Below are positions 30,616-39,394 of a DNA stretch of 64,000 bases, in pieces (positions within the stretch are counted from its first letter, which is position 1; each line of letters opens with the position of its first letter). The DNA is from Clostridia bacterium (GTDB lineage Bacteria > Bacillota > Clostridia > Christensenellales > Borkfalkiaceae): NCBI GenBank assembly GCA_017457225.1, contig JAFTHW010000013.1, positions 62,001 through 126,000 of the forward strand, written 5' to 3'. The notes beneath the pieces are model-generated. The model searched no databases. It saw nothing but the letters and a program-made list of their open reading frames with translations, and was not told where the DNA came from. Made by a program: the position numbers and the translations under genes.

Positions 30616-33600
30616 TTATTCTTGTTCTGGAACTTCTTCCGCCGCCGTAAACGTCCAGATATAAGCAACGTAACCAGCTTCTTCCGCCGTATCCGCCTGC
30701 GTCAAATAACGCGCGTTCTGCGCAACGTCCGAAGTGATCTCGATTACGATCGGCGTTGCATTTGCGTTCTTAGCAACACTCCAGCCTTCCGCAACGTTTT
30801 CAAACGATGCGTTTATCAAGCCTTCACATCCCGCAAAAGCATTTTTACCGATATTCGTTACCGTTGCAGGAATCGTGATCGCCATCAACATTTTGCAACC
30901 GGAGAACGCCTTTTCGCCGATATTCGTCAAAGACAACGACATCGTAATTTCCGCAAGCGATTCACAGCCTTCGAACGCGTTCTTACCAATCGTTACAACG
31001 TTTTCAGGAAGCGTAATACCCGTTAAATTCTTGCATTCTGCGAATGCTTTTGCCGCAATAACTTTCGTACCCGAATAGATTGCGCAACCTGTGATCTTGT
31101 TGTCGACAGCTTTGACAAGCACGAGATAAGGATTCTCGCTGTTACCGAGATAGTAGGCGTTATCGTACTTGGTATAGGTCAACACGTTATCACTTGCCGT
31201 AGGATCCCAGAACGCATCCGCGCCCACTTCCACAACGCTGTCGGGCAGAGAAATATTTTTGAGTTTAGAACAGCCGTCAAACGCGGTATCCCCGATCGTC
31301 TTCAACGTCGAAGGAAGCGTAACGTTTTCCAGCACTTTACATCCCTTAAAGAAGCTCGTACCGATGGTTTCTACTTGCGCGTTAATCGTAGCCGTCGTCA
31401 ACACCATACAATTCAAGAACATCTGATCGCCGAGCGTCGTAACCGTTTCGGGAATGGTAATGCTCGTTAAGCTGTTACATTCTGCGAAAGCGTTTTTCCC
31501 GATTTCCGTTACCGCCGCGGGAATAATAATGCTTTCCAATCCACTCTTATTGAACGCAAACGTACCGATCGTCGTAATGGTTTCGGGAAGCGTAATCGAC
31601 TTCAATAAACTACATCCTGCAAATACGTTTTTACCGATGGAAGTGATCGCCGTTTCCGTAGGGAACGTCACGTTTGCTAATTTCTTACAACCGTTGAAGG
31701 CGCCGTCCGAAATAAATTTCGTATCCGCGTGGATCGCGTGCGAGGTAATCGCAGCGGAATTTTGTGCATTGAGCAATACCAGGTACGGATTCTCTTCGTT
31801 TCCAAGGTAGTTCGCAGTATTCTCTTCCGTTCCCCCGATGGGCCATTGATTCGTAACCAGTTTACCGCAGCTTGCAAACGCGTCCTGACCGATAAACAGA
31901 ACCGAGTTGGGGATTTCTACATTTTCCAAAGCGGAGCAACCTTCAAACAAGGAAGCGCCGATGCTCGTGATATTGGGGAGTTCTACCGCTGTCAAAGCTC
32001 TACAGTTTTTGAACGCGGAAGCACCGATCGAAGTTACGCTAGCGGGAATCGAAAGGGTCGTCAATTTACTACAATTATTGAACGCGGATTGACCGATCGT
32101 CGTAAGCGTCGTAGGCAAAGTTACCGATTCAAGAGCAGTACAACCAGAGAAAGTCGACGCGCCGAGCACGGTCACGCCTTCGGGAATCACGATGCTCACC
32201 AATTTCTTACAACCGTTGAACGCATTTACACCGATGGTCGTTGCGGTGGAGGGAATCGTTAAATTCTCCAAAGACACGCACTTATAGAACGCGTCCGAGC
32301 CAATCGCCGTAACCGCGCCGTTCATCGTAACGGACTCCAAATCCTCGCATCCGGAGAACAAGCCGTCGCTGAGCGTCGTAATCGTCGCAGGCAACGTGAT
32401 CGACTGCAATTTTTCACAATCCGTAAACGCGCCGTTACCGATCGTCGTAAGCATTTCGGGAAGAGCAATCGTTTCGATGCTTTCACAACCGTCGAACACC
32501 GAAGCGCCGATCGCCGTAAGCGTCGTGGGAAGCACAACGCTTTCCAATGCTTCACAGCCGCTGAATACGCTCGCGCCGAGTTCTTGTACTCCCTCGGAAA
32601 CGGTAACGCTAGCCAAATTCACGCAGTTTGCAAACGCGGAGTTCGCAACCGTCTGTATTCCGCCGGGGATCGTCAAAGTCTGCAATTTCGAGCAACCGTT
32701 GAACGCATTCGCTCCGAGCGTCGTTACCGCCGCGGGAATGGTCACGCTAGTCAACCCCGTACAACCGCTGAACGCGGACTTGTCGATGTTAGTGACCGTC
32801 GTAGGAATCGCCAAGCTTTCCAAATTCGTGCAGTTTTCAAACGCAGCGCCACCGATTGCTTTCAAGCCCTCGGGCAACGTAACCGTAGGCGTTCCCAAAT
32901 TCGCATTCGCAAGCGTATTGACGCAATCGTATTCGGTTTTGCAATCTTCCCCGCAATCTTCGGTATGTACGTGAATACAAGCTTCATTTCCCACTTCGCT
33001 ACAATCGTGAGAGAAAGCCTTGCTCGCGATCAATTTCGTATTCGCGTGCACGGTATAAGCAGCTTTCGTCTGATCCGCAACTTTGATCATCGCCAAATAC
33101 GGGTTCGTCGCGCTGCCGAGATATTTTACGTCCTCGTAAACGGTGTAGGTAAGATTGTCACATTTTTCAAACGCCGTCGAATCGATCGCCATAGTCGCTT
33201 CGCTGAGCGTAACCGTTTTCAGTCCTTTACAATAATAGAACGTATTCGCGGGAATATTGGTGATATTCGCGCCCAACGTAACGCTCTCCACCGTCCAGTT
33301 CCACGAGAACGCGTGTTCGCCGATGGAAGTGATACTGTCGGGGAGCGTAATGGTCTTCACGCCGTCGCAGCTACGGAACGCATTTGCGCCGAGCGTCGTT
33401 ACACTGGTGGGAATGTTAATTTCCGTGAACGCATTACAATTCCAGAACGCGCCGTTTCCGATCGTCGTTACGCTGTTGGGAATGGTAACGTTTTTCAAGT
33501 TCACGCAATCTTCAAACGCATTGTCGCCGATGAGCCAAACGCTATCGGGAATGGTAACGGACTTCAACGAATCGTTATCCATAAACGCTTTCGCGCCAAT

Positions 33601-33798
33601 TTCCTTTACGGGTACTCCGTCGTATTCCGACGCGATGGTAAAACTGCTGTCGTGCCCGTCGTATCCAACGAAAATAGCGTAAGTACCGTCCGTCGATTTC
33701 GCATAAGTAGCGCCGCCCTCTTTACAGGACGCAAAACCTGCTACGCCGCTGATCACGGCTACGCCGAGGCATATCGAGGATATCAATTTTTTCTTCAT
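30616..33798 (-). CDS. BspA-type leucine-rich-repeat lipoprotein, 1,060 aa
   Basis: Predicted surface lipoprotein. Residues 1-25 are a signal peptide with lipobox FASC (Cys25). Most of the protein is tandem LRR_5 (BspA/TpLRR) repeats of about 23 residues of the form GANAFxGCxxLxxVxIPxxVTxIG. They are interrupted three times by a segment of the type YLGxxxNPYLxLxKA (near 226, 690 and 895). Residues 264-292 are an unusual insert with five Cys and three His. No C-terminal sorting signal is visible, so anchoring is by lipid. BspA-like proteins of gut and oral bacteria bind host or microbial surfaces; the ligand here is unknown. It is monocistronic, with its own promoter and terminator, directly upstream (in transcription terms) of the polysaccharide operon. 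Confidence 0.88.
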   Translation of the reverse strand: MKKKLISSICLGVAVISGVAGFASCKEGGATYAKSTDGTYAIFVGYDGHDSSFTIASEYDGVPVKEIGAKAFMDNDSLKSVTIPDSVWLIGDNAFEDCVNLKNVTIPNSVTTIGNGAFWNCNAFTEINIPTSVTTLGANAFRSCDGVKTITLPDSITSIGEHAFSWNWTVESVTLGANITNIPANTFYYCKGLKTVTLSEATMAIDSTAFEKCDNLTYTVYEDVKYLGSATNPYLAMIKVADQTKAAYTVHANTKLIASKAFSHDCSEVGNEACIHVHTEDCGEDCKTEYDCVNTLANANLGTPTVTLPEGLKAIGGAAFENCTNLESLAIPTTVTNIDKSAFSGCTGLTSVTIPAAVTTLGANAFNGCSKLQTLTIPGGIQTVANSAFANCVNLASVTVSEGVQELGASVFSGCEALESVVLPTTLTAIGASVFDGCESIETIALPEMLTTIGNGAFTDCEKLQSITLPATITTLSDGLFSGCEDLESVTMNGAVTAIGSDAFYKCVSLENLTIPSTATTIGVNAFNGCKKLVSIVIPEGVTVLGASTFSGCTALESVTLPTTLTTIGQSAFNNCSKLTTLSIPASVTSIGASAFKNCRALTAVELPNITSIGASLFEGCSALENVEIPNSVLFIGQDAFASCGKLVTNQWPIGGTEENTANYLGNEENPYLVLLNAQNSAAITSHAIHADTKFISDGAFNGCKKLANVTFPTETAITSIGKNVFAGCSLLKSITLPETITTIGTFAFNKSGLESIIIPAAVTEIGKNAFAECNSLTSITIPETVTTLGDQMFLNCMVLTTATINAQVETIGTSFFKGCKVLENVTLPSTLKTIGDTAFDGCSKLKNISLPDSVVEVGADAFWDPTASDNVLTYTKYDNAYYLGNSENPYLVLVKAVDNKITGCAIYSGTKVIAAKAFAECKNLTGITLPENVVTIGKNAFEGCESLAEITMSLSLTNIGEKAFSGCKMLMAITIPATVTNIGKNAFAGCEGLINASFENVAEGWSVAKNANATPIVIEITSDVAQNARYLTQADTAEEAGYVAYIWTFTAAEEVPEQE

Positions 33799-34225: not shown

Positions 34226-34993
34226 TTATGAAATATTCAATCGGATATTTTCAATGGCATTCTTTTCCAGCCGCGAAACCTGCGCCTGTGAAATTCCCAC
34301 CTCTTCGGAGATCTCCGTCTGCGTTTTCCCCTCAAAGTACCTTAAAAATAAGATCTTTTTTTCTCTATCCCCCAATTTCTCCATCGCTTCGGAGAGCGCG
34401 ACGTGCTCCGTCCAGATCTCGTCCGTGTTCTTTTCATCGCAAAGCTGATCCATCAACAAAAGAGTATCCCCCGCCTTATTATAAACGGGCTCGTAAATGG
34501 ACACGGGATCGGAGATCGCGTCGAGCGCGTACACCACTTCCCGTTCCGCCACTTTCATTTCCTCGGCGATCTTGGCAAGCGTCGCTTCCTCGTCCCGACT
34601 CTCGATCGCTTCTCTGGCTTTCAACGCCCGATACGCCGTATCCCGAATGGAGCGGGACACGCGCAAGGAATTCCCGTCCCGCAAATACCGTTTAATCTCC
34701 CCGACGATCATCGGCACGGCGTAAGTGGAAAATTTAACGCCTACGCTCGTATCGAATCCGTCGATCGCTTTGATCAACCCCACGCACCCTGCCTGAAACA
34801 CGTCGTCCGCTCCTAGATTTTTAATTCGGAAACGTTTGACGAGCGACAGCACAAGCCGCATATTCCCGACGATAAACTGCTCCCGAGCCGCTCTATCCCC
34901 GTTTTTGAGCCGTTTCATTAACTCCTCGTTTTCCTTGGCAGTCAGCTTGGGCAACCCCGACGTATCCACGCCGCAAATCTCCACTTTTTGCAT
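34226..34993 (-). CDS. sigG: RNA polymerase sporulation sigma factor SigG
   Basis: Late forespore-specific sigma factor directing RNA polymerase to forespore genes after engulfment. The start is placed at ATG 34993, preceded by a strong GGAGG ribosome site, giving 255 residues that begin QKVEICGVDTSGLP, the conserved SigG N-terminus; the longer in-frame opening up to 35161 overlaps the neighbouring gene and is not coding. Region 2 is visible as REQFIVGNMRLVLSLVKRF and GCVGLIKAIDGFD, with KFSTYAVPMIVGEIKRYLRD. Region 4 ends TQTEISEEVGISQAQVSRLEK. In Bacillus and Clostridium sigG normally follows sigE directly; here three genes separate them. Confidence 0.95.
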   Translation of the reverse strand: MQKVEICGVDTSGLPKLTAKENEELMKRLKNGDRAAREQFIVGNMRLVLSLVKRFRIKNLGADDVFQAGCVGLIKAIDGFDTSVGVKFSTYAVPMIVGEIKRYLRDGNSLRVSRSIRDTAYRALKAREAIESRDEEATLAKIAEEMKVAEREVVYALDAISDPVSIYEPVYNKAGDTLLLMDQLCDEKNTDEIWTEHVALSEAMEKLGDREKKILFLRYFEGKTQTEISEEVGISQAQVSRLEKNAIENIRLNIS

Positions 34994-35070
34994 ACCTTTC
35001 CCCTCCTTTTTCGTATGTAAAAATCCAAAACCAAGCGGGCAGGGTTGAGATGAGTATGCGCAAGTCCGCA

Positions 35071-35102
35071 AAAAAATATACGCGGAACTGCCCGTTCCGC
35101 GT
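35071..35102 (-). terminator. terminator of the SipW-module genes
   Basis: A 9-bp perfect stem, ACGCGGAAC (35080-35088) with GTTCCGCGT (35094-35102) and a 5-nt loop. On the minus strand it is followed by ATATTTTTTT. It begins 26 nt past the stop codon of the second secreted protein and separates the module from sigG. Confidence 0.8.
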
Positions 35103-35127
35103 AAAATTTTTCCAAGATTTCTTTTCG

Positions 35128-35850
35128 TTAAGAAGTAGCGGTAAGATCGCCAGCCGCCCAAGTATCGGGATCGAACGACGGAATCTGCGTCGCGTTCATA
35201 TTGCTTCTACTCTCCTCGTACCAAGCAGACTTTGCCGAGCCGATCTCGCTGGCAACGGCTTCCCATTGATTGGAAGCGTTTTTCTCCACTCTCGTACGGT
35301 AAATGGGATAGATATACTCCCCGATCGGCGTCGTCGGTTTTCCTTCCTTGGTGTTCGTACCCCAGAGCCAATGAATCGCGCCCTTTTCACCCAAATCCAC
35401 GTCCGTCGTGAAAATGTAATAGTAATCGGTCGTACCGTCGTTATTTTCGTCCACCCATTGAATCAGGAAAGATAAGTTTTTCGTACCGGCTTGGAAAAGC
35501 TCCTCCAAATCGTCCCCTTGCGTGATCGCCATACTCCCCAGCGTATCTCTCCCCCAACGGCTATCACGGGTTGAAATCTGTTGATTGAGATAGGAATTTG
35601 ATGTATTCAAGCCCTTGTTCACGCCGTTGACCAACGCTTCCACCAAAAGCGTATGATCGTTCTCGTTCTCCGTATCGTCGGGCAAAACGACTTCGGGTTT
35701 CCATTCGCCCATAGTCATACCGACGTCGGCGGTTTGCATTTCGGGCGGCTCGCTGGCGTACTCCCAAGTCGCGTACACGCCCGTTATAGAAAGTATAGTC
35801 GTCACGGCGCAAATCGCGCATAACGTTCTTCTCGTCAGTTTGCCGCGCAT
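35128..35850 (-). CDS. secreted protein with SipW-dependent-type signal peptide (240 aa)
   Basis: Predicted secreted or matrix protein. The N-terminal signal segment ends in GVYATWEYA (24-32), nearly identical to GGVYATWSYA in the first gene of this module. This fits the SipW-dependent signal type seen in TasA/camelysin-like proteins, where a hydrophobic core runs into a small-residue and aromatic motif. The rest is polar and acidic, with NDGTTDYYYIFTTDVDL, WLWGTN and many Asn/Thr residues; no catalytic motif is recognised. It lies 17 bp after the signal peptidase gene, behind a GGGAGG ribosome site, and ends at a good terminator. Function unknown; a spore-coat, matrix or fibre component is the most natural guess from family context. 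Confidence 0.7.
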   Translation of the reverse strand: MRGKLTRRTLCAICAVTTILSITGVYATWEYASEPPEMQTADVGMTMGEWKPEVVLPDDTENENDHTLLVEALVNGVNKGLNTSNSYLNQQISTRDSRWGRDTLGSMAITQGDDLEELFQAGTKNLSFLIQWVDENNDGTTDYYYIFTTDVDLGEKGAIHWLWGTNTKEGKPTTPIGEYIYPIYRTRVEKNASNQWEAVASEIGSAKSAWYEESRSNMNATQIPSFDPDTWAAGDLTATS

Positions 35851-35867
35851 ACGCCGTTCCTCCCTCT

Positions 35868-36917
35868 TTATTTCTTTTTGAGCGGTTTCCGCCCTTGTTC
35901 TTCGGCTTTTTCGCCTTTCAATTGCTCACGGAGCAACGTCGCCTCTTCTCCGAGTTTGCCCTCCGCGGACAAGTACTTGACCACGCGCGAACTTCTGGAA
36001 ATAGGCGCGGAAGATATATTCCGATGCACGACGATCCAGCTCGGCGTTTCCGTCGACAGTTCGACGGGTTGCTCTTTTCTTTCCTCTACGGGAACGACGG
36101 TAAGATTCTTCGCCGCCACGGGCGTTTCTTTCCTTTCGTTCCAACCGAAAAGCAGCGCAAGTCTTGCCAATTTTTCCTTTTCGATCTTTTTCTCCACCGC
36201 AGGCATTGCGAATACGCCGAACACCGTCAAAAGTATACACAAATATCCCGCAGGCGATTGCAGGAACGTGACGAGCGAGCCCAAGAAAGGCACGTGTTTT
36301 CCACGGTAAATCGCTTTCATTTGTTCGTAGCGTACGGGAAAACGGTCGGGCGTTTCCACAGCGTCCCCTTGCAAACGGAAAAACCGCTCGTTCGGATGCG
36401 CGGCGTTCGGCTCTTCGATCTCTACGATACGGTGTACGAGCAGTACGTCGTCCACTTCGTAAACCACGACGTCGTACAACTCTAACTCCATTTCGTCGGG
36501 GAGTTTATGCGTCACAATAATATCGAACGCGTCGAACTGATTGTCCAGCCCGTTTTCGTACAAGTATTTGTTCTCTTTGTGCTTTTCCGCCATAGAGCCC
36601 GTATAGACGACGCGAAGGGACGGAATGTCCGTCGTCGTTTTTTCGCTGATGTTTACGTATAACGAAAAGGCGAAGAACGTGCACAGCGCAACAAAAAACA
36701 CACCCGAAAAGATTTTTTCAAAAATCCCCGAGCCTTTTTTGCCTTGCTTCTTCTGCTCTTCTTTCCATTCGGCTATAATTTTTTCGTCTTCCAAACCGCC
36801 TCGGATCATTCGGATGAGTTGCTTGACGATCAGCGTCACCATCACGCTGAACAATGCTGTCAACGCCACGAACACGATCAAACACAGCAGGAAAACGTAT
36901 ATCTCGTAACCTTGCAT
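35868..36917 (-). CDS. signal peptidase I, SipW/ER type (S26B), with N-terminal helix
   Basis: 349-residue membrane protease that removes signal peptides outside the cytoplasm. One transmembrane helix is at about 8-34, a lysine-rich linker at 50-70 and a second helix at about 71-91. The S26B catalytic pattern follows: Ser108 in VVYTGSMAEKH, His162 in LLVHRIVEI (His where bacterial-type enzymes have Lys) and Asp185 in RLQGDA, then TPDRFPV. A third helix lies near 208-228, followed by a long basic tail. The Ser-His-Asp pattern marks the SipW/archaeal/ER branch. It lies between two genes whose products share a GVYATWxYA signal motif, its likely substrates. The acidic/basic tail of about 100 residues is longer than in typical SipW. 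Confidence 0.85.
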   Translation of the reverse strand: MQGYEIYVFLLCLIVFVALTALFSVMVTLIVKQLIRMIRGGLEDEKIIAEWKEEQKKQGKKGSGIFEKIFSGVFFVALCTFFAFSLYVNISEKTTTDIPSLRVVYTGSMAEKHKENKYLYENGLDNQFDAFDIIVTHKLPDEMELELYDVVVYEVDDVLLVHRIVEIEEPNAAHPNERFFRLQGDAVETPDRFPVRYEQMKAIYRGKHVPFLGSLVTFLQSPAGYLCILLTVFGVFAMPAVEKKIEKEKLARLALLFGWNERKETPVAAKNLTVVPVEERKEQPVELSTETPSWIVVHRNISSAPISRSSRVVKYLSAEGKLGEEATLLREQLKGEKAEEQGRKPLKKK

Positions 36918-36944
36918 AACGCCGCCCTATGAAAACGCAAAAGA

Positions 36945-36974
36945 CTTTATCCCATACCGCAATATGGGATAAAG
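36945..36974. terminator. intercistronic hairpin in the SipW module
   Basis: A 12-bp perfect stem (36945-36956 with 36963-36974, 6-nt loop) between the first secreted-protein gene and the signal peptidase gene. The T tract on the minus strand is weak (GTCTTTTGCG), so it probably acts as a partial terminator or 3' stabiliser, giving more of the upstream product than of the peptidase. A T-rich tail exists on the plus strand. Confidence 0.5.
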
Positions 36975-37017
36975 CACTTTTTGTTTTATGTAATGATTCT
37001 TTTTATGGTTTTAAAAC

Positions 37018-37698
37018 TTAAGCGATAGCTTCTACTGCGTAGAAATGAAGATGCCCGTATCCCAAAGCCGTTTCATACGCAAGATATTTATCATGAATAT
37101 TCAACGTAATTTCGTTCAACAAAAGTTTAGCCATAACGGTCTCGATGCTTACCTTAAACGAGAAAGAACCGTCTGCATTTTTCTGCATTGCGGTATACTC
37201 CGTACCCGAAGCAGCCGTAGCGGCGTTATATTTCGCCATCGTGGTCGGATCCGTATCTATGTTCTCAAAAATTTGCTTCGTTTCGGTATCATAGTTATAT
37301 ACCCAATCTTTGTAATCCGTAACGCCGTCCGAATTCGTGTCGACAACAGCAGATTCAAACGAATATCCTACGTACCAATTGATCGCGATACCGTTGGTTT
37401 GAACCGCATCGTCTGCGATGTCGCTAGGCGCGAACGTAACAGTGAAGTAACCGCTCGCATCCGCAGTCTCCAATTCCGTAACGTGTCCGCCCTTGTCGTC
37501 TACCTTCAATCCTACGTTCGTACCCACAACACTGATAGTACCTTTTGCCGTACTCGAATCAACGCCGGTCAAGGTCAAAGCCATATTACCGCTCGCCGGA
37601 GTGGTAATCTCATTCTGTGCATACGACCAAGTAGCGTATACGCCGCCGATCGTTACGCAAAGCGCTGCTGCCATCAAAAGACTCATTTTCTTCTTCAT
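37018..37698 (-). CDS. secreted protein with SipW-dependent-type signal peptide (226 aa)
   Basis: Predicted secreted protein and first gene of the module. The signal segment (MKKK, hydrophobic core 6-17) ends in GGVYATWSYA (18-27), matching the other secreted protein. The mature part is beta-rich in appearance and rich in Thr, Asp and Ala, with MALTLTGVDSSTAKGTISV, DASGYFTVTFAPSDI, DTNSDGVTDYKDWVYNYD (an EF-hand-like Asp-rich stretch) and LNEITLNIHDKYLAYE. No enzymatic motif is seen. TasA/camelysin-type proteins have comparable size and export; homology beyond the signal is not evident by eye. It has a consensus sigma-A promoter with a hairpin at the start of the leader, so expression need not be limited to sporulation. 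Confidence 0.7.
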   Translation of the reverse strand: MKKKMSLLMAAALCVTIGGVYATWSYAQNEITTPASGNMALTLTGVDSSTAKGTISVVGTNVGLKVDDKGGHVTELETADASGYFTVTFAPSDIADDAVQTNGIAINWYVGYSFESAVVDTNSDGVTDYKDWVYNYDTETKQIFENIDTDPTTMAKYNAATAASGTEYTAMQKNADGSFSFKVSIETVMAKLLLNEITLNIHDKYLAYETALGYGHLHFYAVEAIA

Positions 37699-37739
37699 GA
37701 TTTCTTCTCCTTTTTATCTCAAGATAAATTTTGACATTT

Positions 37740-37760
37740 TTAAGAGTAACACTCTCTTAA
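37740..37760. promoter_or_regulatory. inverted repeat just downstream of the SipW-module promoter
   Basis: TTAAGAG and CTCTTAA arms around AACAC, with a two-base offset, immediately downstream of the -10 element. Its position over the transcript start suits a repressor operator or a 5' mRNA hairpin. No regulator is identified. Confidence 0.35.
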
Positions 37761-37764
37761 CGAA

Positions 37765-37793
37765 ATTATACCACCGCCCCAAAACTTTGTCAA
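37765..37793 (-). promoter_or_regulatory. promoter of the SipW module (sigma-A type)
   Basis: Minus-strand perfect TTGACA (37788-37793), 17-bp spacer ending TGG, and perfect TATAAT (37765-37770). It lies between sigE and the first secreted-protein gene, so the module can be transcribed independently of spoIIGA-sigE. Confidence 0.85.
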
Positions 37794-37842
37794 GTGTTTT
37801 TCAATGCTTTTGATTTAAGAATTTATAATTTTTATAATCGTA

Positions 37843-38568
37843 TTAATTCATTTTTGCGATTTCCTTTTTCAAGCGCAATATGATTTTTTTCTCCAATCGG
37901 GATATGTAGCTTTGGGAGATCCCCAAAAGTTCCGCCACGTCCTTTTGCGTCATCTCCTCGCCACCGCCCAATCCAAAGCGCAAAAACATAATTTTCCGCT
38001 CCCGTTCGGAGAGTTTTTTCAAGGCTTCTTTGAGTTGCTCTTTTTCGGCGTTGGACTCGATATCTCCGTACACGCTATCCGCGGACGTGCCCAAAACGTC
38101 GGACAAAAGCAACTCGTTCCCCTCAAAATCGGTATTCAAAGGCTCGTCGAAAGAAATCTCGCTTTTGAGCCTTGCACTGCGACGCAGATACATCAAAATT
38201 TCATTTTCGATGCAACGCGAAGCGTACGTCGCCAATTTGATATTTTTGTCGATTTTAAACGAATTGATAGCTTTAATCAGTCCGATCGTGCCGATAGAAA
38301 TGAGATCGTCGTTGTCCACGCCCGTATTGTCGAATTTTTTGGCGATATATACGACCAACCGAAGATTCCGTTGAATGAGCTCCGTTTTTGCCTTTTCGCG
38401 TTCGGATTCCTCCTCCGCTTTCAACAGCGCGAGCATTTTCCCCTCTTCTTCAGGCGAGAGGGGCAAGGGCAACGCTTCGCCGTTGCCGCAAACGTAATCC
38501 ACGACGTTGATCCCCTCAAATGAGCGGAATTTTTGCAAAATTCGACGCAATAATTCAAAAACTTTCAT
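37843..38568 (-). CDS. sigE: pro-sigma-E sporulation sigma factor
   Basis: Early mother-cell sigma factor, made as an inactive membrane-associated precursor and activated by SpoIIGA cleavage. The 241 residues start with a basic/hydrophobic pro-sequence (about 1-25, ending [17 protein letters not shown]; cleavage by analogy near Tyr25), followed by region 2 [18 protein letters not shown] and [37 protein letters not shown], and region 4 [21 protein letters not shown]. The match to Bacillus SigE is strong through region 2. The start overlaps the spoIIGA end by 14 bp, so the protease and its substrate are translationally coupled. Confidence 0.96.
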
Positions 38569-39394
38569 TGTTTTCTCCTCGATTCCCCTCTACGTCTTGC
38601 AGAATTCGGGAACTTAAAATCATTTTATACTCTCTTGATATCATATTGGACGAGGGCGCAAAATATGCTTCCCGTTTTACGATTCGTCTTTTTTCGTCAA
38701 AAATCGACAATTCCCCTTTGTATAAAGGGAGCGTCTTTACGCCGCCGAGCGTGAAAATCGTGATCTCATCTCGTACCTGCCCAACCTCTTTTTCCTTTTG
38801 AAAGTATTCTTCTCCCCATAGCTCATAAGCGAGATCGGGAGATAAAAAGCAAACGGGCAATCCGTTTTTGATGGAAGAATTGCCGCTATCATAGAGGGAC
38901 AAAACGCGTACACTCCTTTGTTTATAAGCGATTTCGCAATCGTACAAAAAATTTTCTTCTCGTCGTTTCCGCCATAATTTTTTGATCAAAAAGCAAATCA
39001 AAAGCGCAAACGGTACGGCTAAAGAAAGCACAAAAACCGCTTTTACGCGCTCTTCACCCGGCAAAAAGAGCGCGTAGAGAACTCCTCCGAAGCAAAAGGA
39101 GAACGCAAAGAAAAATATGCAACTCAACGCATACCTGCCCCATTCTTTTTTTGTTTTTAAGCGCGGATATGCCGCCAAGCAAAGAAAAAAGCCGACGGCA
39201 ATTTTCAACAAAAAACCCCAAAAATCGGGCAAATACAACAGGGGATAGACGAGAGCAAATCCCGCGCCGAAAAGCGCAGAAAACGCAATCTTTTTAAGGC
39301 GAATTTGCGCCTTTGCAGCGCGGAGCGACAGCCACAAAAGCAGTCCGTCCAAAAGATAATTCTCCAAAAACGCGTACTCGATATAAATCTCCAT
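38555..39394 (-). CDS. spoIIGA: sigma-E processing peptidase SpoIIGA
   Basis: Membrane aspartic protease that activates pro-sigma-E at the sporulation septum. The N-terminal half of the 279 residues has five hydrophobic segments (about 7-25, 36-55, 58-78, 88-110, 118-137). The C-terminal soluble domain carries the catalytic motif YDSGN (Asp169), equivalent to the D-T/S-G of retroviral-type aspartic proteases, which act as dimers. The start [20 protein letters not shown] fits the family (x-Y-x-D-x-x-F/L-N pattern). A TATAAT -10 lies about 40 bp upstream without a clear -35, as expected if an activator such as Spo0A is needed; this is inference. Confidence 0.93.

Follow-up and report, generated by a model that had tools for sequence, protein, structure and literature searches.

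The closest described counterparts of the locus examined here are operons in which a SipW signal peptidase gene lies beside genes for secreted proteins with SipW-class signals. According to the consulted portions of the respective reports, the gene order in Bacillus subtilis is tapA-sipW-tasA (PMC10151520), the aromatic residue F29 of TasA lies in the donor strand, which inserts into the following subunit, and TapA, whose N-terminus is similar to that of TasA, starts assembly (PMC9674648, PMC10151520). In Clostridium perfringens, SipW is required to export the filament-forming protein BsaA, and a terminator splits the sipW-bsaA operon (PMC7395162), and in Bacillus cereus SipW processes a few fibre proteins and an assembly helper (sipW-tasA/calY with CapP; PMC13082335). 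Here, we find this operon layout in a 64,000-nucleotide stretch of a Clostridia bacterium genome (the window, C15:62001-126000 of its assembly), where the genes of two predicted secreted proteins, here called SecA and SecB, flank a SipW-like peptidase gene and the three together lie between sigE and sigG. Our best reading, by comparison with the described operons, is that this may be a vegetative two-protein fibre system that resembles tapA-sipW-tasA in layout and has non-homologous mature proteins. We judge the chances to be evenly balanced that it is a portable cassette with a sigma-A-type promoter whose products form an extracellular fibre on growing cells.

A recurrent cassette of uncultured Clostridia

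SecA-sipW-SecB is a recurrent cassette of uncultured Clostridia, mostly from the herbivore hindgut. Open reading frames (ORFs) and profile scans gave the minus-strand order spoIIGA, sigE, SecA, SipW-like peptidase, SecB, sigG, and together with the profile-identified flanks this bears out a preliminary description that had placed a three-gene module between sigE and sigG (the range that it named, 35128-39394, includes sigE and spoIIGA besides the cassette). In a sample of 101 genomes of the family (G numbers below), a peptidase match at E 0.001 was found in 46 and an orthologue (identity of at least 42%, E <1e-50) in 21. SecB is present in all 20 of the other orthologue genomes, with 18 found by BLAST and those of G072 and G024 recognised from their position and signal, and BLAST found SecA in 17 of the 20, with two of the three misses truncated at contig ends. 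The SecB profile matched 22 of the 101 genomes, namely the 21 with the orthologue and G036, where a fragment lies at the contig start, and the co-occurrence of SecB and peptidase gave a Fisher p of 9e-21 with relatedness ignored. The profile match was limited to the N-terminal module in G049, G024, and G072.

The same picture emerged from the best 80 of 106 peptidase relatives from a pattern-based search through 84,980 species genomes, a set of named loci (L numbers) that overlaps the family sample (L127, L132, and L163, for example, are contigs of G024, G072, and G089). The titles of 60 of the 80 name the cecum, colon, or rectum of goat, sheep, deer, yak, or water buffalo. SecA-like genes with a signal were seen in 73 of 75 loci (68 by a strict pattern, the remainder by eye), and 76 of 79 loci had a SecB-like gene (51 by a strict pattern, the remainder by eye); five loci were set aside for the SecA count because the contig start was too near, and one for the SecB count. 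The conservation of order and content in relatives indicates that the module is not a chance arrangement. The co-occurrence of the three genes that the preliminary description had hoped to see in a synteny comparison was thus found, and its proviso about close relatives with an unlinked module applies to the location but not to the module itself. No report of the cassette or of cargo in the sigE-sigG gap appeared in full-text searches judged by titles and abstract openings, in a literature mostly from outside subscription journals. In L084 (5710-5916), the SecA frame has just 68 amino acids with the N-terminal module whole and represents a broken or mis-assembled gene.

The peptidase, its two predicted substrates, and their shared module

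By profile comparison, the peptidase is a divergent relative of the SipW-type (S26B) family and not SipW itself. It matched the SipW model NF046067 with an E value of 2e-14 but with 53.5 bits against a curated cut-off of 190, and the archaeal-type model TIGR02228 with an E value of 4e-9 and 36.4 bits against a cut-off of 51.85. The S26B catalytic set Ser108-His162-Asp185, as assigned earlier, proved to be invariant in 20 aligned sequences, as is D191, and the same alignment shows a membrane stretch of about 70 residues N-terminal to the catalytic part; the window protein also has a C-terminal tail. The length is at least 500 amino acids in 22 of the 80 named relatives. Long relatives in L132 (7998-9647), L100 (2155-4686), and L150 (8001-10052) carry C-terminal repeats with a consensus near RGKTLNVYLALNP, and in the scan of these three proteins the repeats matched no Pfam family above the cut-off. 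An ordinary S26 peptidase is encoded on a different contig of the window genome, and the cassette peptidase is therefore not the only signal peptidase of this genome. The GVYATW motif that had been noted in the signals of both secreted proteins was confirmed, and in the whole 1.38-Mb assembly the exact DNA pattern for it is found just twice, in SecA and SecB. This confinement to two genes, together with the separate S26 peptidase, suggests that the cassette enzyme is likely dedicated to SecA and SecB, which we count in favor of a fibre system.

The two predicted substrates have more than the signal motif in common. Profile alignment of SecA with SecB covered 52 N-terminal columns (probability 97.5, E 6e-12), corresponding to the signal and about 25 residues past the expected cut, and the SecB profile, when run genome-wide, also picked up the N-termini of SecA genes. 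From alignment with the TasA-type signal GG-x-aromatic-A-x-aromatic, we infer that the cut falls after GVYA. When residues beyond this site were counted, using an anchor made only of residues before the expected cut, position +2 was W or F and position +4 was Y or F in 67 of 68 SecA and 55 of 55 SecB sequences each; the database homologues had W at +2 and Y or F at +4 in 7 of 7 cases for SecA and 103 of 103 for SecB. Sequences missing the anchor were left out (5 of 73 SecA, 19 of 74 SecB, and 0 of 7 and 16 of 119 database homologues, respectively). The equivalent aromatic residue, F29, is invariant in 17 proteins of the camelysin family, and by analogy the shared W-x-Y module is seen to occupy the place of the TasA donor strand. 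Matches to the N-terminal module were also found off the cassette, at G071:C32:39180-39338, G030:C55:19922-20080, and G014:C4:100457-100609 (with one internal TGA), and judging by the module these genes are possibly additional substrates.

Beyond the module, profile scans and comparisons support the view that SecA and SecB constitute a new protein family or families with no detected TasA homology outside the signal, in agreement with the preliminary description, which had recognised no TasA homology outside the signal. No Pfam or NCBIfam model came near its cut-off with the window SecA or SecB, and no family recurred among 70 SecA and 62 SecB relatives, the commonest matching five members at E values of at least 0.02. 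The TasA/camelysin model PF12389 matched neither protein at E 1 and nothing in the genome; the BsaA model TIGR04090 did not match the window SecA or anything in G000, and it matched 1 of the 70 SecA alignment members weakly (E 0.032). A set of 5.8 billion proteins contained 183 homologues of SecB and 8 of SecA at E 0.001, the nearest SecA homologue being 97% identical to the window protein, and no Pfam domain was found among the 120 SecB matches listed. Median pairwise identity over 40 loci was 25% for mature SecA and 21% for mature SecB, compared with 49% for the SipW core. The model of SecA (mean pLDDT 78) has a beta-rich body at about residues 41-226 preceded by a low-confidence coil at residues 16-40, with the mature N-terminus unpacked, and that of SecB (mean pLDDT 82) consists of a signal helix followed by a body of mixed alpha/beta type. 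The jelly-roll folds that had been predicted are therefore only loosely matched, through the beta-rich SecA, with no clear match in the Protein Data Bank (PDB) and with SecB being mixed alpha/beta.

Expression, genomic position, and competing explanations

The promoter and hairpin pattern of the cassette would fit a vegetatively expressed unit with SecA in excess. The best sigma-A match in 72 SecA leaders averaged 10.6 of 12 positions and reached at least 11 in 43, compared with a mean of 9.1 and at least 11 in 60 among 320 control leaders, taken from other genes of these loci (Mann-Whitney p 9e-13, Fisher p 2e-11; the loci are related, and these values are therefore too small). Simple consensus strings, used with no significance test, gave the same 72 leaders means of 8.07 for sigma-E (7.85 in controls) and 8.39 for sigma-G (8.33 in controls), and no excess of either promoter type, as a sporulation regulon would have, was visible before SecA. 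Gaps between SecA and sipW of at least 40 nucleotides (nt) folded better than shuffles (z <-2) in 51 of 54 cases, compared with 78 of 138 co-directional control gaps (Fisher p 5e-8). The preliminary description had called the module terminator-bounded, which is right for the hairpins after SecB and between SecA and sipW, but the hairpin scan of the window lists none between sigE and SecA.

The position of the cassette is labile and recurrent at once, and the sigE-sigG junction is a recurrent landing site in the family. In 70 family genomes, sigE and sigG share a contig and a strand; the two genes are adjacent in 56 of these (median gap, 112 nt), separated by 0.76-16 kb in 12, and far apart in 2. 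The cassette fills 3 of the 12 widened gaps, those of the window, G072, and G024, and in G072 an isocitrate/isopropylmalate dehydrogenase gene lies beside it. The remaining nine contain genes unrelated to the cassette, some of them of the alpha- or beta-galactosidase type. Pfam identified an alpha-galactosidase in G084, G099, and G055, a family-2 glycoside hydrolase in G023, an alpha/beta-hydrolase in G048, and NADH-oxidoreductase-type genes in G032; the gap of G076 holds a 4732-residue frame, and the gap genes of G049 and G005 had no Pfam match at E 1e-5. These nine gaps carry the locus numbers L068 (G049), L069-L075 (G084, G099, G055, G005, G023, G048, and G032), and L083 (G076). In two genomes of the same genus as the window, G049 and G071, the cassette and sigE-sigG are on different contigs, with sigE and sigG one unrelated gene apart or adjacent, and most family genomes with both sigma factor genes lack the cassette. 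Six of the 80 named loci besides the window have the cassette between sigE and sigG, with 6.6 kb between sigE and SecA in L121. In L107, the cassette comes after sigG rather than before it.

From the location, the preliminary description had proposed a role at the spore surface or in the mother cell. A structure of this kind, made in sporulation through sigma-E or sigma-G, or else by transcripts running on from spoIIGA-sigE, and coating the spore or the mother cell, now appears very improbable. Its support comes from the seven occurrences between the two sigma factor genes, from the lack of a listed terminator ahead of SecA, and from sigE and sigG being the commonest neighbour family of the 80 loci (the next, found in five, is apparently a leucine-rich, BspA-type repeat protein). 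Against this stand the sigma-A-like promoter across the set with sigma-E and sigma-G scores near those of controls, the same-genus genomes with the cassette elsewhere, the many sigE-sigG genomes that lack it, and the use of the same gap by unrelated sugar-degrading and redox genes. The predominance of adjacent pairs in the family further undercuts the argument from location. A position at the sigE-sigG junction, usually read as fixed, is no evidence of spore function, and the cassette probably does not belong to the spore. A separate question, compatible with either functional reading, is whether the cassette sat ancestrally in the sigE-sigG gap and reached its other sites by later moves, which we regard as possible without expecting it. 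Linked loci turn up across the entire SipW tree, and within one clade of 11, four members have both genes near and two have one (in one of the latter, L105, sigE is antiparallel), as an ancestral site might leave behind. On the tree of 81 peptidases, the label "both sigE and sigG near" (seven rows, including the window) takes seven changes, at least six of them forced by well-supported branches, and clusters no more than shuffled labels do. Linkage to sigE or sigG (11 of 46 rows, with 34 short rows and L105 left out) takes a minimum of 7 changes, or 8 with gains only, whereas one ancestral gain leads to 14 losses, and the presence of unrelated cargo in the gap also speaks against a site that belonged to the cassette from the start.

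It is also conceivable, though rather unlikely, that SecA and SecB are non-polymeric surface or antagonistic proteins, such as an adhesin, a binding protein, or an antimicrobial, with one dedicated peptidase. The fast divergence of both mature proteins would suit such a role, as would the alpha/beta model of SecB with no obvious fibre fold and the range of 174 to 483 mature residues among SecB-type proteins, which perhaps do not all do one job. The beta-rich SecA model with its unpacked N-terminus and the module common to both proteins argue for a fibre instead, and the known SipW substrates, in the consulted portions of the literature, are fibre proteins or helpers. That SecA and SecB form a fibre is nevertheless weakened on several counts, the variable length of SecB being one of them. 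Fibre, cleavage, and expression are all predictions for every member of the cassette. Foldseek returned no PDB match at an E value of 0.001 or below for either model, the top VIA Z scores of 6.4 (SecA) and 5.1 (SecB) are in the background range, and in profile comparison neither SecA nor SecB aligns with the TasA family outside the signal peptide. The W-x-Y motif could serve peptidase recognition alone. With regard to expression, 57% of control gaps fold strongly too, a T-rich tail follows the SecA-sipW hairpin in just 24 of 55 cases, and in 11 of the 80 loci the nearest two genes on a side include sigE or sigG, which keeps some room for a link to sporulation.

For the vegetative fibre system, we can outline how it would work. 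The promoter would drive SecA strongly, and the hairpin observed after SecA may pass less RNA on to sipW and SecB. The peptidase would cut both preproteins after the observed GVYA motif, as in TasA, leaving mature N-termini that begin with T-W-x-Y. SecA would then form a beta-sandwich whose free N-terminal strand enters the next subunit in the manner of TasA, and SecB, with its related N-terminal segment, may initiate or anchor the fibre as TapA does. The cassette as a whole would move between genome sites, as its observed lability suggests, with the sigE-sigG gap as one recurrent site. Taken together, this would make SecA a subunit and SecB a starter of a new class of SipW-exported fibre, unrelated to TasA, TapA, CalY, or BsaA but assembled by the same conserved W-x-Y donor strand after SipW cleavage, in a cassette that spreads as one piece through uncultured gut Clostridia and comes to rest time and again in the sigE-sigG gap. 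We put this fuller proposal forward tentatively, with the chances leaning slightly against it in all its parts.

Locus features and comparison with known systems

The window comes from an assembly of 1.38 Mb in 42 contigs, with a completeness of 92% and a contamination of 5%. Its features are collected below; sipW and SecB are 17 nt apart, and the GC content of the six locus genes is 0.43-0.52, a composition that gives no hint of recent import.

Features of the sigE-sigG locus, in coordinates of the window
Feature	Position	Strand	Basis
spoIIGA	38555-39394	-	PF03419, 98.5 bits, above cut-off
sigE, upstream flank	37843-38568	-	NF006158, 343 bits, cut-off 339
Sigma-A-type promoter upstream of SecA	37765-37793	-	TTGACA-17-TATAAT, 12/12, TG before -10 (extended -10)
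SecA, predicted secreted, 226 aa, cassette gene 1, proposed major fibre subunit	37018-37698	-	ORF
GVYATW codons in SecA	37627-37644	-	DNA pattern search
SecA/sipW hairpin, 14 pairs (leaky terminator or mRNA 3' stabiliser)	36944-36975	-	Hairpin scan
SipW-like (S26B, ER-type) signal peptidase, 349 aa, cassette gene 2	35868-36917	-	ORF, profiles
SecB, predicted secreted, 240 aa, cassette gene 3, proposed initiator/tip/anchor	35128-35850	-	ORF
GVYATW codons in SecB	35764-35781	-	DNA pattern search
SecB/sigG terminator-like hairpin, 10 pairs, T-rich tail on minus strand	35079-35103	-	Hairpin scan
sigG, downstream flank	34226-34996	-	NF006071, 375 bits, cut-off 372

A BspA-type leucine-rich repeat protein of 1060 residues (30616-33798) adjoins sigG in the window, and similar-looking proteins lie close to the cassette in 5 of the 80 named loci. 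The window genome has SpoIVA, SigE, SigG, and SpoIIGA; the SASP family PF00269 was not found in it or in 12 same-genus genomes, most of which are <90% complete.

If the proposed fibre system is real, SipW would be a general Gram-positive route for building fibres in which the signal and the donor strand are kept and the mature protein is replaced, and the cassette would supply fibre candidates for a large uncultured gut lineage. With Peptidase S26B (SipW, archaeal type, and Sec11), the cassette enzyme has in common the invariant Ser-His-Asp set and weak profile matches to Sec11 chains (E 0.02), and it differs in falling under the SipW cut-off, in its membrane stretch, and in the great length of many relatives. 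As in the sipW-tasA/calY system with CapP of B. cereus, in the parts of that report consulted, a small set of fibre proteins with an assembly helper would depend on SipW, but no TasA or CalY model matches SecA or SecB. With the sipW-bsaA operon of C. perfringens, again as far as the consulted source goes, the cassette would share a clostridial SipW with a polymer-forming substrate and a terminator within the operon; it differs in gene order, in the single weak BsaA match among the 70 SecA members, and in that no regulator recurs among the neighbours in the 80 loci. The comparison with tapA-sipW-tasA of B. subtilis goes furthest. The mature proteins of the cassette align with the TasA family over the signal only, gene 1 rather than the last gene looks like the main product, and the peptidase is extended at its N-terminus and often at its C-terminus as well. 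In the portions of the reports consulted (PMC9674648, PMC10151520), both systems nevertheless have a SipW-type peptidase gene between two secreted-protein genes, a G-G-x-aromatic-A-class signal with a conserved aromatic residue after it, and two substrates with similar N-terminal segments.

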